A stretch of 44,259 nt of DNA from Desulfovibrionaceae bacterium (GTDB lineage Bacteria > Desulfobacterota > Desulfovibrionia > Desulfovibrionales > Desulfovibrionaceae), in the NCBI GenBank assembly GCA_015233395.1, contig JADFXV010000018.1:1-44259 (forward strand), read 5' to 3'. Positions 1,757 to 41,272 of the stretch are shown in pieces. The notes beneath the pieces are model-generated. The model worked only from the letters and a program-made list of their open reading frames with translations, ran no database searches and was not told the origin of the DNA. Positions within the stretch are counted from its first letter, which is position 1. Each line of letters begins with the position of its first letter. The translations under genes and the position numbers were made by a program.

Positions 1757-1853
1757 GACCTGGCTGGGGCTCCGCCCCAGGCCCCGCCGGGGGCGATGAT
1801 CGCCCCCGGACCCCCGCGTCAGGGGCGCGGCCTCATCCCCTGACGCGGGGGGG
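1757..1853. repeat. GC-rich multi-hairpin intergenic repeat (three-hairpin copy)
   Basis: Three hairpins in a row after the 1303 gene: CTGGGGCTCCGCCCCAG, then arms CCGGGGGCGA/TCGCCCCCGG around a 3-base loop, then arms CCCCCGCGTCAGGGG/CCCCTGACGCGGGGG. The same modules in the same order begin the copies at 19120-19272 and 41057-41198. This copy lacks the mirrored second half. Confidence 0.75.
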
Positions 1854-4737: not shown

Positions 4738-4767
4738 GGCCGAATAAAAGTGCGGAGGTTCTTTGTC

Positions 4768-4836
4768 GAGGGGGTCCGGGGGGAATGATTCCCCCCGGTG
4801 GGGTTCCAAGGGGCGAAGCCCCTTGGCCGCCGGAGG
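4768..4836. repeat. GC-rich hairpin repeat, two-hairpin copy after pyrC
   Basis: Hairpin with arms CCGGGGGGAAT/ATTCCCCCCGG, then CCAAGGGGCGAAGCCCCTTGG, then the edge CCGCCGGAGG, which ends four bases from the pyrC stop codon. Same module order as at 20450-20525. Confidence 0.75.
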
Positions 4837-4840
4837 CGCG

Positions 4841-9365: not shown

Positions 9366-9376
9366 AGGAGAGGAAT

Positions 9377-9416
9377 CGGGGGAAACCCCTTTTGTGAACA
9401 AAAGGGGTTTCCCCCG
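9377..9416 (-). repeat. Long-palindrome repeat, copy 2
   Basis: Perfect palindrome after sufB: arms CGGGGGAAACCCCTTTTGT and ACAAAAGGGGTTTCCCCCG around GA. The flanks GAGAGGAATC on the left and the A-rich AAAAAACTTTT on the right match the copy at 24621-24716. It probably acts as the sufB terminator hairpin. Confidence 0.75.
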
Positions 9417-9442
9417 AACCCCCTGCCTCAAAAAACTTTTCA

Positions 9443-9485
9443 CGGCGGTCTTGCGTTTTCGCGCAGCGAAAACGCAAGACCGCCG
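9443..9485. repeat. Palindrome with GCGTTTTCGC core, copy 1
   Basis: Perfect 20-base arms (CGGCGGTCTTGCGTTTTCGC and its complement) around GCA. A related palindrome with core GCGTTTCGC-ATA-GCGAAACGC is at 31848-31898; in both places it lies next to a long-palindrome repeat. Confidence 0.7.
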
Positions 9486-9496
9486 AAAACCGTTTC

Positions 9497-9536
9497 GAGG
9501 GGGTCCGGGGGGAATCATCCCCCCGGCCGCCGGAGG
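9497..9536. repeat. GC-rich hairpin repeat, single-hairpin copy
   Basis: Starts GAGGGGGTCCGGGGGGAATC, giving a hairpin with a CCCCCCGG right arm, and ends with the edge CCGCCGGAGG. The CCAAGGGG-type hairpin is missing. Unlike most copies, its CCGCCGGAGG edge faces the start of a gene (9563). Confidence 0.7.
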
Positions 9537-9562
9537 CTCTCTTTTCCGCCAAGGAGGCAACC

Positions 9563-10257: not shown

Positions 10258-10358
10258 GCCTCCGGCGGCCAAAGGGCTGCTCCCTTTGGAATCCCGCATA
10301 ATTTTAGCGGGTTGCTCCGCCGTGTTGCGAGTCTGACCTGGCGGCAAATGGATTTTGC
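10258..10358 (-). repeat. Extended GC-rich repeat, inverted copy
   Basis: Read on the minus strand it runs GCAAAATCCATTTGCCGCCA ... AAATTATGCGGGATTCCAAA ... GCCCTTTGGCCGCCGGAGGC. The same succession, with few differences, occurs on the plus strand at 42876-42963. This extends the common AAAGGG...CCCTTT hairpin module by about 60 bases. Its CCGCCGGAGG edge faces the 3' end of the GyrI-like gene. Confidence 0.75.
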
Positions 10359-19074: not shown

Positions 19075-19111
19075 AAACGGCGCTTGCGCACCCGCGCAAG
19101 CGCCGTTTTTT
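19075..19111 (+). terminator. Intrinsic terminator of the qmo operon
   Basis: Perfect 15-base stem, AAACGGCGCTTGCGC with its complement around ACCC, running into six T (19106-19111). It begins 22 bases after the qmoD stop. Confidence 0.9.
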
Positions 19112-19119
19112 GTGGGAAA

Positions 19120-19272
19120 CCAGGGGCGCTGCCCCTGGACCCCGCCGGGGGCGATGATCGCCCCCGGACCCCCACGTCAGGGGGTGCGGGCGTTTCCCCC
19201 TACGAGGGGGTCCGGGGGGCATCATGCCCCCCGGCGGGGATCCAAGGGGCGGAGCCCCTTGGCCCCCGGAGG
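19120..19272. repeat. Five-hairpin mirror-symmetric repeat block, copy 1
   Basis: In order: CCAGGGGCGCTGCCCCTGG; arms CCGGGGGCGA/TCGCCCCCGG; a central pair ACCCCCACGTCAGGGG with CCCCTACGAGGGGGT (decayed compared with 41057-41198); arms CCGGGGGGCAT/ATGCCCCCCGG; CCAAGGGGCGGAGCCCCTTGG; edge CCCGGAGG. The whole block is itself roughly an inverted repeat. It lies between the convergent qmoD and pdxA and includes the pdxA stop codon. Confidence 0.8.
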
Positions 19273-20280: not shown

Positions 20281-20449
20281 CTAGGCCAAATACCCGAGTC
20301 GCCTTTGTGGGCCAAGCGCGGGGTGCCGCCGCGGCGTCGTTTCCAGCCGGAACTTTGTTTGAAAAACCAAAAGCGGAACCACTATTTTTCCCCAAGTGGG
20401 CTGCCGCCCCCGGCCCCGGCCATGAATCGGGGCTTTGCCTCGGCCCCCC

Positions 20450-20525
20450 CGTCATGGGGGTCCGGGGGCGATTATCGCCCCCGGTGGGGATTCCAAAGGG
20501 GCAAAGCCCCTTTGGCCGCCGGAGG
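20450..20525. repeat. GC-rich hairpin repeat, two-hairpin copy after glgB
   Basis: TCATGGGGGTCC, hairpin CCGGGGGCGA/TCGCCCCCGG, hairpin CCAAAGGGGCAAAGCCCCTTTGG, then edge CCGCCGGAGG, ending 17 bases from the glgB stop. It lies in the 262-base divergent-downstream gap between pdxA and glgB. The rest of that gap (20281-20449) shows no gene. Confidence 0.75.
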
Positions 20526-31675: not shown

Positions 31676-31847
31676 AGGACTCCACCAAGGCGATAATAAA
31701 CAAATAATCCTACGTCGAATCCGCCCTTTCCGCAACCGCGTTACGGCAGGCCAGCGCCGCCCGGGAGACCGTTTTGAACGGGGGACGGGTGGAAGCGTCG
31801 CGGGGGGATCAGGAATGAAATTCTCCCCTGACCCGGTTCACAAACGC

Positions 31848-31898
31848 ACCGGGCCGGGAGCGGCGTTTCGCATAGCGAAACGCCGCTCCCGGCCCGGT
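31848..31898. repeat. Palindrome with GCGTTTCGC core, copy 2
   Basis: Perfect 24-base arms beginning ACCGGGCCGGGAGCGGCG and ending GTTTCGC, around ATA. It is related in design to 9443-9485 and directly adjacent to the next palindrome. Confidence 0.75.
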
Positions 31899-31909
31899 TG
31901 AAGTTTTTG

Positions 31910-31963
31910 AAGAGAGAACCAGGGGGCAACTTTTTTCAAAAAGTCGCCCCCTGGTTCTCTCTT
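31910..31963 (+). repeat. Long-palindrome repeat, copy 3
   Basis: Arms of 26 bases with one mismatch: AAGAGAGAACCAGGGGGC-A-ACTTTTT and AAAAAGT-C-GCCCCCTGG plus TTCTCTCTT, around TC. It is preceded by GAAGTTTTTGA, similar to the AGTTTTTTGG start of copy 1. Its right edge touches the stop codon of the minus-strand gene at 31962. Confidence 0.75.
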
Positions 31964-34429: not shown

Positions 34430-37240
34430 TTACTGCAGGGTCCTGGCGGTTTTCGGCTCGTCGTCGCCAAGATCGATGGCCGCGCCGAAGACCGGTTCGC
34501 TCGCGTTTCCGGCCATGGCCCCGGGATCGACCGGAATGGCCGTCTCGACCAGTCCGGCCGGTTCGGCCGGTTCGACCGGTTCGACCGGTTCGACCGGGGC
34601 GACTGGGCCGGCCTGGATTTCCGGGGCCGGTTCGCCAAGCGAGGAGCCCGGCTTGCAGGCGATCATGTGGTTGGCCAGCAGGGTGGCCAGGGAGGCGGCC
34701 TGGAAATGGTCGCGCGCGACCAGGAGCAGGGCGGCCAGCGGCGCGAGCCCGGCCACGGCCAGGCCGAGCAGGCCCGCGGCGGCGTAGGCCGCTCCGGCCA
34801 AGGCGGCGGACGAGACAAGCAGAAACAGCGCCGAGGAGGTGGGCAAGATGACCCCGGCCAGGCGCACGAAGCGCCGTGAGCCGCCGTGGTTCTCGACCGT
34901 CAGGCGCAAGCGCATCTTGGCCCACAGGCCGGGCTGGGCCTGGATGTCCCAGGGCGCGGCGCCGGACTCGGAAAAGCCGGAGTCGATCTTCTGCGAGACG
35001 CCGAGCGAACCGAGCAGGGCCATGGTGTGGTCGATGACGTCTTCGCGCTCCAGGCCCTGGGTGTTCCAGAAGTAGCGGTGGAAGGTGAAGCCGTGGGTGA
35101 GGAGCATGGCGGCCTCGGAGGCCTTGTTCCACAGCCTGCGCGGCAGGCTTGCGGTTTCGCGCGGCAGGCCCATGCCGGTCTTGCGCTGGCTGCGGAATTT
35201 GCGCCAGGCGGTCAGGCGCAGGGCGAGCAGGGTGCGGTAGCGGGTCTGGCCGCGCAAGACCGGCTGGGACAGGGTGAGCAGGGCGATGATCAGGCGCGAA
35301 CGCCAGTTGTCGTAGGCGCGCGGCAGCCTTGCCTTGCTGGCCATGTGGCCGACGAAGGCGAGGCTGGTCAGGGCCATGAAGGCGGCCGGCAGCGCGGCCA
35401 GCGGATAGAGCACGGTCAAAAATCCAAGCGCCAGCGTGAGCATCATCCATTCGAAGCTCATGGGCAGGTAGGCGAGCAGGCTGCCCTTGGGCTCGTATAA
35501 GGTTTGGAACAAGCCCATGCCGAAGACGCCGTGGTAGATGACCGGGCGCGAGGTGAGCAGGGCGCCCGAGATGTCGCCGTAGATGCGACCGGCCCAGCGG
35601 GAATTGCCCAGCTGGTTGAAGCGGTCCGGATGCTTGGGCGTGAGCAGCGCCTCGGCGCGGCCGTAGCCCTTTTGCTGCTTGAGATAGGCCTTGATGGTGT
35701 TGCGGCGGTGGTGCCAGACCATCATGGCGGCGGAAAAACCGATCTCGTAGCCCTGGTTTTGCAGGCGCCAGCACAGATCCACGTCGTCGCCGGCGGCCCG
35801 GTACAGGGCGTCGAAGCCGCCGATCTCCATGAGCTTGTCCTTGCGGAAGGCCATGTTGCAGCCCGGGATGTGCTCGGCGATCTCGTCGGTCAAGAGGACG
35901 TGGGTGGGCGCGCCCGGGGACACGGCCACGCAGGCGGCGGTGCGGTTGTCTTCGGGGGGCGGCAGGTTGGGGCCGCCGACGCCGGCGAAGCGGCCGTCGG
36001 CAAAGGCCCAGGCCATGAAATGCAGCCAGTGCGGATCGACGTAGCAGTCGGAATCGGTGTAGGCGACGATCTCGCCCTGGGCGGCGTTCATGCCCACGTT
36101 GCGGGCCGCCGACAGCCCCAGGTTGGGCTGGTGGATGACGTGGATGAAGGGAAAGAGCGCGGCGTACCGGTCGGCGATCTCGCCGGTGGCGTCCGTGGAG
36201 CCGTCGTCCACGACGATGACCTCGAATTCCGGATAGGTCACCTTTTCAAATGATTTCAGACAGCTGTCCATGGTCGAGTCGGCGTTGTAGGCGCAGACCA
36301 CCACCGAGATGAACGGCGGCTTGTGCGGCAGTCCCGGCAGGTCGTGGGCGTAGGCGTTGGACACGGCGTGGTAGGCGGCCTTGGGCACGCGCGCGGCGTC
36401 CACCAGGCCGAACGCCCAGTCGTCGATCAGATGCCCGCCGGTGTACCATTCGTCGGTCCAGGCGAAGACCACCGTGCCGGAAACGCCCAGCTCAAAGGCC
36501 GCCCGGACCTGCCAGTCCAAGGTGTTGGCCTGGGCCTCCTGGCCGTGGCGGATGGAGTCCATGCCGAATTCGGACAAGACCAGCGGCATCTCGCCGGCCA
36601 CGTTCTGCAGGCGTTTGACGTACGCCCGGAAGGATTTTTCCTCGTGCAGGTAGACGTTGAAGGACAAAAAATCCAGAAAGGGGAGCTTTAAGTACTCGGT
36701 CGAGGGATAGTTGGCGTAGGTGACCAGCGCGGTCGGGTCTTCGGCGCGCACGATTTCGGTCAAAACCTTGAGGAATTTTTCGATGTGGCTCGCGCCGCTC
36801 CAGCGCACGATGTGCGAGGGGATCTCGTTGCCGATCAGGTAGGCGAGCACGGCCGGGTGGCCCTTGCAGGCCGTGACCGCGTCGCGCACGGCGTCCTTGA
36901 CCGACTCCTTGACCTCCCACTGGTCGAGAAAGCACAGATGCTGCGGCCAGGGAATGCCGATCATGACGTGCACGCCGCTTTTCGCGGCCAGGTCCAGAAG
37001 CCACGGCGGCGGGACGTAGTACACGCGGATGGTGTTGACGCCCATGGCCCGCATCATGTCGAAATCCTTGGCGGCCATCTCCGGTTCGGGCAGCGGTTCG
37101 CCGAGCGAGTTGGCCGGGAACGGACCGTAGGTCACACCCTTCATAAAGAACTTGTCGTCGCCCAGATACAGGAAACGGCCGTGGGCCCGGGGCCTTTCGA
37201 CGATTTGCCGGTCGGTGACGGCTTGATCCAAGCGGAACAT
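34430..37240 (-). CDS. Glycoside hydrolase / family 2 glycosyltransferase fusion membrane protein
   Basis: 936 residues with three parts. Residues about 15-300 are a clan-A-type TIM-barrel hydrolase-like domain: MRAMGVNTIRVYYVPPPWLL, AYLIGNEIP with the acid/base pair N138-E139, and PLVLSEFG with nucleophile E224. Residues about 308-560 are a GT2 domain: FISVVVCAYNADSTMDSCL, VVDDGSTD (D345-D346), YTDSD (D396, D398), and a GDDVDLCWRLQNQGYE acceptor/base region. From about 575 on come several hydrophobic segments, then an Ala/Leu-rich membrane pair (about 805-860) and a tail with VEP repeats. Such proteins could synthesise and trim or transfer a beta-glycan. The ABC exporter gene follows directly. 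Confidence 0.88.
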   Translation of the reverse strand: MFRLDQAVTDRQIVERPRAHGRFLYLGDDKFFMKGVTYGPFPANSLGEPLPEPEMAAKDFDMMRAMGVNTIRVYYVPPPWLLDLAAKSGVHVMIGIPWPQHLCFLDQWEVKESVKDAVRDAVTACKGHPAVLAYLIGNEIPSHIVRWSGASHIEKFLKVLTEIVRAEDPTALVTYANYPSTEYLKLPFLDFLSFNVYLHEEKSFRAYVKRLQNVAGEMPLVLSEFGMDSIRHGQEAQANTLDWQVRAAFELGVSGTVVFAWTDEWYTGGHLIDDWAFGLVDAARVPKAAYHAVSNAYAHDLPGLPHKPPFISVVVCAYNADSTMDSCLKSFEKVTYPEFEVIVVDDGSTDATGEIADRYAALFPFIHVIHQPNLGLSAARNVGMNAAQGEIVAYTDSDCYVDPHWLHFMAWAFADGRFAGVGGPNLPPPEDNRTAACVAVSPGAPTHVLLTDEIAEHIPGCNMAFRKDKLMEIGGFDALYRAAGDDVDLCWRLQNQGYEIGFSAAMMVWHHRRNTIKAYLKQQKGYGRAEALLTPKHPDRFNQLGNSRWAGRIYGDISGALLTSRPVIYHGVFGMGLFQTLYEPKGSLLAYLPMSFEWMMLTLALGFLTVLYPLAALPAAFMALTSLAFVGHMASKARLPRAYDNWRSRLIIALLTLSQPVLRGQTRYRTLLALRLTAWRKFRSQRKTGMGLPRETASLPRRLWNKASEAAMLLTHGFTFHRYFWNTQGLEREDVIDHTMALLGSLGVSQKIDSGFSESGAAPWDIQAQPGLWAKMRLRLTVENHGGSRRFVRLAGVILPTSSALFLLVSSAALAGAAYAAAGLLGLAVAGLAPLAALLLVARDHFQAASLATLLANHMIACKPGSSLGEPAPEIQAGPVAPVEPVEPVEPAEPAGLVETAIPVDPGAMAGNASEPVFGAAIDLGDDEPKTARTLQ
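34552..34596. repeat. 9-base tandem repeat coding for VEP units
   Basis: Five units: GTCCGGCCG, GTTCGGCCG and three of GTTCGACCG. On the minus strand they encode the EPV/EPA repeats in the C-terminal tail of the fusion protein. Length is a multiple of three, so copy-number change would keep the frame. Confidence 0.75.
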
Positions 37241-41056: not shown

Positions 41057-41198
41057 CCAGGGGGCTTTGCCCCCTGGACCCCCACCGGGGGCGATGATCG
41101 CCCCCGGACCCCCGCGTCAGGGGACACGGCCGCGCCCCTGACGCGGGGGTCCGGGGGGCATCATGCCCCCCGGCGGGGTCCAGGGGCGGAGCCCCTGG
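41057..41198. repeat. Five-hairpin mirror-symmetric repeat block, copy 2
   Basis: The best-preserved copy: CCAGGGGGCTTTGCCCCCTGG-type hairpin, arms CCGGGGGCGA/TCGCCCCCGG, central arms ACCCCCGCGTCAGGGG/CCCCTGACGCGGGGGT, arms CCGGGGGGCAT/ATGCCCCCCGG, then CCAGGGGCGGAGCCCCTGG. The order H1-H2-H3-H2-H1 makes the entire block a large inverted repeat. It sits between the co-directed tsf and pyrH. Confidence 0.85.
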
Positions 41199-41233
41199 TC
41201 GGGGTTCGGGGCGCGGCCCCGTGGGTTTTAGGC

Positions 41234-41261
41234 CAAAAAAAACGGGCCGTGCGGCCCGTTT
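41234..41261 (-). terminator. Intrinsic terminator of rpsB-tsf
   Basis: On the minus strand AACGGGCC-GCAC-GGCCCGTT followed by a run of T, starting about 12 bases after the tsf stop. Confidence 0.85.
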
Positions 41262-41272
41262 TGGTTTGCGAT

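Follow-up and report, generated by a model that had tools for sequence, protein, structure and literature searches.

A REP-dimer-like repeat of nested palindromes in a Desulfovibrionaceae genome, and its possible reshaping by template switching

What is a set of hairpins in mirror order doing between the genes of a Desulfovibrionaceae bacterium? The window, by which we mean the whole 44,259-nucleotide stretch of DNA that was analyzed (from contig JADFXV010000018.1), holds two full copies and a half copy of such a block. The original prediction described five consecutive hairpins, H1-H2-H3-H2-H1, and offered several purposes for them: transcription termination, protection of mRNA ends, or a substrate for a REP-associated or DNA-structuring protein. 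The three copies are indeed where they had been placed (Table 1). The second full copy starts at 19120, as described, and ends at 19262; the proposed end at 19272 takes in a CCCCCGGAGG tail. The inventory was also short of several partial copies, which lie near 4764-4838, 9374-9540, 20407-20525, and 31827-31925.

The mirror order of the hairpins is real. It arises because the block is one imperfect dyad palindrome, and both full copies are nested dyad palindromes. Rather than five separate hairpins, the RNA of 41057-41198 is predicted to form a single long nested one of -135.8 kcal/mol, with a z score of -10.2 against 200 shuffles. The DNA fold of the same 142 bases has a z score of -9.5 (again 200 shuffles), and in its minimum form H2a, H3, and H2b remain three distinct hairpins, with H1/H1' as the outer stem that carries them. 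Rfam has no match above the gathering score in the window. The H1 loops there (e.g., 4806-4826 and 19242-19262) often read GC-GNA-GC, a motif of unusually stable DNA mini-hairpins. A nine-base direct repeat of the CCGGTTCGA type is found at 34537-34616, within a called gene on the minus strand (34430-37240).

Table 1. Positions in the window of the blocks, their parts, and neighboring elements
Feature	Positions	Strand	Description
Full block	41057-41198	.	H1-H2a-H3-H2b-H1'
H1	41057-41077	.	Outer hairpin, 9-bp stem, variable type
H2a	41085-41107	.	10-bp stem, ATGAT center; directional unit, points left from block center
H3	41108-41150	.	Structured spacer: ACCCCC/GGGGGT heads and GTCAGGGG/CCCCTGAC arms
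H2b	41151-41173	.	10-bp stem, ATCAT center; directional unit, points right
H1'	41180-41198	.	Outer hairpin
Extra outer unit	41200-41221	.	GGGGTTC and hairpin; extends the array
Intrinsic terminator	41235-41263	-	Behind tsf; separate neighbor, outside the block
Second full block	19120-19262	.
H1 of second block	19120-19138
H2a of second block	19145-19167
H3 of second block	19168-19211
H2b of second block	19212-19234
H1' of second block	19242-19262
Intrinsic terminator	19077-19111	+	Just before second block; separate neighbor, outside the block
Half copy	1764-1852	.	H1-H2a-H3
H1 of half copy	1764-1780
H2a of half copy	1787-1809
H3 of half copy	1810-1852
Single outward unit	4764-4838	+	GGGGGT-H2-TGGGGTT-H1-CCGCCGGAGGC
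Partial copy	20407-20525	+	H2-H1 unit with CCGCCGGAGGC tail
Second-class doublet	9374-9540	.	T-rich hairpin, 20-bp center 9443-9485, H2 unit 9505-9526, CCGCCGGAGGC tail
Second-class relic	31827-31925	.	24-bp central palindrome 31848-31898

How common is the block in its own genome, a draft of 3,372,092 bases in 158 contigs at 98.9% completeness? A search of both strands together gives at least 86 matches, a lower bound with 40 of 219 first-look candidates scored. The H2 pattern, allowing up to three mismatches, has 105 matches on one strand and 113 on the other, counts that are inflated by shifted matches, against 0 and 0 for a reversed control. The original prediction staked itself on many copies, and mapping of the core on the window and 40 genome stretches bears it out: near full-length cores number at least 43, and 11 more are partial.

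An alignment of 42 cores (the 43rd has a deletion and was omitted) shows H2a-H3-H2b as the only conserved part. Contrary to what had been proposed, this core does not read alike on both strands. It has a polarity, with CG around ATGAT on the left and GC around ATCAT on the right. Each half, followed from the center outward, consists of GGGGGT, H2 with ATCAT, CGGGGT, and an H1 hairpin, often with CCGCCGGAGGC behind it. Nor is H1 one repeated hairpin, as was thought, but a mixed set of types (CCAAGGGGC, GAGGAGGC, AGGGGC, TGGGGC, and others), and the outer boundaries of the copies are mosaic. With 43 sides of each kind, CCAAGGGGC lies beside H2a 13 times and beside H2b 12 times, GAGGAGGC 5 and 6, AGGGGC 9 and 7, and TGGGGC 4 and 5, while no H1 was detected on 6 H2a sides and 4 H2b sides. 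Since the types are about equally frequent on either side, the orientation of the core looks independent of its flanks. Between tandem genes, 12 cores lie one way relative to the genes and 8 the other, with no clear bias. Further families of short hairpins between genes are present at L155, L156, L158, L166, and L170; GGGAGCAAAAAG...CTTTTTGCTCCC and GAAAATG...CATTTTC are examples.

Are the stems maintained as stems? In all, 94.1% of cells are paired over the 42 sequences. The covariation that the original prediction called for is found in the H2 stems; over the structure as a whole, 10 pairs have changed on both sides compared with 4.8 expected, a number reached by none of 500 shuffles. Pairing by helix is 99.0 and 96.2% for the two H2 stems and 89.7% for H3, which is imperfectly paired in this family; two of its positions are unpaired in 25 and 19 of the 42 sequences. 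Among 1,512 cells, the mispairs comprise 41 A.C, 37 G.T, and 48 others. A.C mispairs are as common as G.T, and therefore neither strand looks favored as RNA.

What about relatives? Under strict filters, a covariance model built from the core matches 19 of 119 family genomes (own included) in 10 of 44 genera, and has no match in 80 loci of named relatives, chosen by pyrH and too distant. The grammar is kept across the matched genomes, and the H2 stems and central palindromes differ; G047 (L177 and L189), for example, has a center with long perfect arms, and G044 and G113 have other arms. In the genus of G044, 7 of 15 genomes have matches. Four sites in this genus were compared by way of the neighboring gene, and its two H2 types, a and b, are given here in order toward that gene. 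Flips and arm turnover are seen solely in this other genus because the searched sets included no congener of the own genome.

Site 1, with the gene present in 11 genomes, reads b-a in G044 and G140, and a-b in G098 and G141, the G141 reading being based on two contigs that both break off inside the block. In G139 the array is built differently and contains two central palindromes, in five genomes (G113, G125, G142, G143, and G144) the block is absent or reduced to degenerate pieces, and G136 is unreadable at a contig end. Upstream of the site 1 gene (L249 and L250), an H1 unit ends in a CGCCGGAGGC tail immediately ahead of an ATG, for which this tail could serve as the ribosome-binding site. 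At site 2 (14 genomes), G113, G140, and G044 read a-b, and G141 reads b-a, with a single flank to go by. The upstream gene is also there in G125 and G142, where the block is absent or decayed, and the other eight genomes do not show that neighborhood. Site 3 (seven genomes) reads a-b in G044 and b-a in G125, with both flanking genes in one alignment. Here G136 has a on the first side and a masked partner, G140 and G098 have b on the first side and a partner that is decayed or rebuilt, and G113 and G143 have no block. Site 4 (10 genomes) is a-b in both G044 and G140; seven genomes show no block, and L312 gave no N terminus to read. Orthologous sites 1 and 3 thus show both orientations, and for each orientation at least one genome carries the two flanking genes on a single contig.

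The central palindrome could be scored in 13 of the 23 loci at these four sites, and in nine of the 13 it is mismatch-free over 19 to 24 bp, two of the nine (G139 and G098) being additional rather than standard centers. Compared over 19 pairs, the seven mismatch-free standard centers show between 1 and 8 changed pairs among themselves, and every pair is Watson-Crick. Even arms at the same site differ, by 1 pair at site 2 (G140 and G044) and by 6, 7, and 8 pairs at site 3 (G044, G140, and G136).

A second class of doublet exists in the own genome, at 9374-9540 and 31827-31925 of the window and at L160, L167, and L013. It has T-rich outer hairpins, ACCCCC...CAAAAAACTT linkers, and perfect centers, mostly of 17 to 24 bp, that are specific to each copy. 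The same turnover is seen in this class: around a TTTCGCnnnGCGAAA apex, nine intergenic centers carry arms that pair perfectly over 13 to 24 bp, two of them cut by contig ends. The apex was the search condition, and therefore the outer arms alone count; the outer parts of all nine differ. A tenth match (6 bp) falls within a long stretch that looks coding.

How might palindromes stay perfect as their sequences and orientation change? The block is best read as a non-coding, REP-dimer-like (BIME/REPIN-like) intergenic repeat in which two directional palindromic units stand head to head around a palindromic spacer. Our preferred reading, to which we give a probability of roughly 0.55, adds that template switching rewrites the arms of this repeat and inverts its inner segment and that the repeat spreads as non-autonomous DNA. 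In replication, DNA polymerase would switch template between the inverted repeats. Such switching would both rewrite an arm to match the other and invert the inner segment. Palindromes would in this way be kept perfect and orientation kept random, with no selection for RNA structure and no dedicated protein. Template switching by itself does not account for dispersal to new sites, and copies would presumably spread as non-autonomous DNA. The available text of PMC8604942 describes template switching as homogenizing the arms of inverted repeats and inverting the spacer, and that of PMC8794818 holds that it can create and maintain hairpins. These published effects predict arm rewriting and flips, and so both would be explained. 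Support comes from the dispersed copies with their conserved core, the covariation, the grammar shared across the family, and the two orientations at orthologous sites, as well as from an orientation that is unbiased with respect to H1 types and tandem genes, from the lack of strand bias among mispairs, and from arms that are free of mismatches in 9 of 13 centers yet differ from each other. The imperfect H3 of the own family speaks against it, as does the failure to find a mobilizing protein in the genomes searched. The main alternative for the flips is independent insertion, in either orientation, at a favored spot; the roughly 30 extra bases beside the gene-proximal H1 of G098 at site 1 fit such separate insertions. 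A broader claim would treat nested bacterial palindromes of this kind as a class in need of no transposase, with template switching by itself perfecting, rewriting, flipping, and perhaps multiplying them, and with covarying stems arising in the absence of selection for structure; it seems to us rather doubtful.

Could the block instead be a bidirectional terminator or mRNA 3'-end stabilizer, as originally suggested? A transcript of either strand would form a very stable hairpin, and gene context offers a further argument. By a home-made gene caller, the 44 classified copies comprise 20 between tandem, 14 between convergent, and 9 between divergent genes, and 1 at a contig end. No copy midpoint falls inside a called gene, and a few copies overlap gene ends by about 40 bases. 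The comparison sample, 439 kb from 20 stretches and the window, has 243 junctions of at least 30 nt, of which 40 are convergent, 48 divergent, and 155 tandem. Convergent sites are thus enriched about 2-fold among copies (14/43 versus 40/243), and at several of them the block is no more than 30 nt from both stop codons. Divergent sites, upstream of both genes, are just as common as expected (9/43 versus 48/243; the proteins flanking these nine copies were read by eye). Only 7 of 76 H1 tails have at least five T's in 10 nt, a U-tract terminator was detected at 4 of the 44 copy junctions (such terminators are rare in this genome by the detector used), and both full copies in the window adjoin a distinct U-tract hairpin, at 41235-41261 and at 19077-19111. 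Given the divergent copies, the rare U-tract tails, the separate neighboring terminators, and mispairs that do not point to selection on either RNA strand, the evidence does not support a dedicated terminator role. We consider such a purpose unlikely, though termination or insulation may be a secondary function of some copies. The other suggested role, a site for a DNA-structuring protein such as gyrase or a nucleoid protein, with the extruded cruciform as the functional state, would suit perfect palindromes kept despite large sequence change and a location between genes of any orientation. Two observations argue against essential sites: H1 types mix freely, and in related species the copies at orthologous positions are missing or decayed. 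It appears very unlikely.

A further possibility is that the block is a true REPIN or BIME whose RAYT has since been lost, was missed in the draft, or was replaced by an IS200/IS605 TnpA. Its anatomy is that by which REPINs are defined, an inverted doublet of short palindromic units with many extragenic copies; single-unit relics occur as well, and the own genome has two Y1-transposase genes. These two are the matches to PF01797, both IS200-like by eye, and the RAYT model NF047646 scores at best 26 bits there against a cutoff of 80. None of the 19 doublet-bearing genomes, among 119 family genomes sampled, has a RAYT over the cutoff, and RAYT-like genes in relatives are without flanking H1/H2 units (six loci examined). 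GTAG tags are found in 2 of 42 cores, as is CTAC. The cores likewise lack the tag of CGTC REPs, an unpaired CGTC at one end with AT at the first stem positions. CGTC is instead read inward, within a stem, in 21 of 41 left halves and 34 of 42 right halves, and the H2 stem starts with CC. The greater conservation of doublet over single units that REPINs would predict was not seen (0.884 and 0.883; permutation P = 0.53), in an underpowered comparison of 4 and 16 units on stretches chosen partly away from known blocks. The block resembles a REP dimer and may function as one. Because no RAYT was found and both tags are lacking, it is placed as a new variant rather than as a member of the REPINs or CGTC REPs, and true REPIN status is improbable. 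A REP-associated transposase was searched for and not found, nor was any mobilizing protein, in a draft own genome and, for RAYT, in the 119 family genomes. The more general description, a REP-like, DNA-structured repeat with no transposase of its own, is supported.

Two side observations belong here. Single GGGATTCCAAAGGGCnnnGCCCTTTGGCCGCCGGAGGC hairpins occur at 10269, 28439, 38094, and 42932 of the window, at L157 10881, and at L162 13617; such a hairpin is present in 8 of the 40 convergent junctions, 2 of the 48 divergent ones, and 7 of the 155 tandem ones, and these hairpins are possibly genuine 3'-end elements. An IS200/IS605-like TnpA with a TnpB-like neighbor, judged by eye, lies at L042 10-1981, at a contig start. 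A plasmid origin was also considered and set aside; distant BLAST gave two partial matches, over 37 and 51% of the query.

If the template-switching reading of this REP-dimer-like repeat is true, the presence of compensatory changes does not prove that a repeated hairpin is a functional RNA. Covariation of many pairs, as well as inversion in place, would look like by-products of copying through inverted repeats, and orthologous sites would form a natural set from which the rate of such events is measurable. It also adds a REP-like family without RAYT. In the literature searched, mainly outside subscription journals, we found nothing linking repetitive extragenic palindromic elements with template switching and nothing on inversion of REPIN spacers; titles and the beginnings of abstracts from the same range gave no description of Desulfovibrio REP, palindromic or hairpin, BIME, or MITE repeats like these.

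How does the block compare with known systems? Enterobacterial BIMEs are intergenic mosaics of different palindromic units in alternating orientation. The block, by analogy, may be seen as a similar alternating mosaic between genes, and differs in its unrelated sequence, the lack of RAYT, and its failure to avoid divergent intergenic regions. The y/z1/z2 REP mosaics of Escherichia coli are mentioned in the available text of PMC8266576. Head-to-head REP heterodimers with structured spacers are described in the accessible part of PMC3733652 (Di Nocera 2013), whose CGTC-tagged dimers, as presented there, share with the block this architecture and the absence of a dedicated transposase; in the block, CGTC sits in the paired spacer, varies among copies, and appears as GACG when read in the direction of the unit, the stems are without an initial AT, and divergent sites are not avoided. 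REPINs, so far as the available text of PMC3116915 (Bertels and Rainey 2011) describes them, differ from the block in that its carriers yielded no RAYT, it has no GTAG tag, it bears extra outer H1 units, and its doublet units looked no more conserved than singles in a small sample. Both consist of two short palindromes, inverted relative to each other, on either side of a spacer that is less conserved and forms a hairpin; both also have many extragenic copies, compensatory changes, and relic single units.
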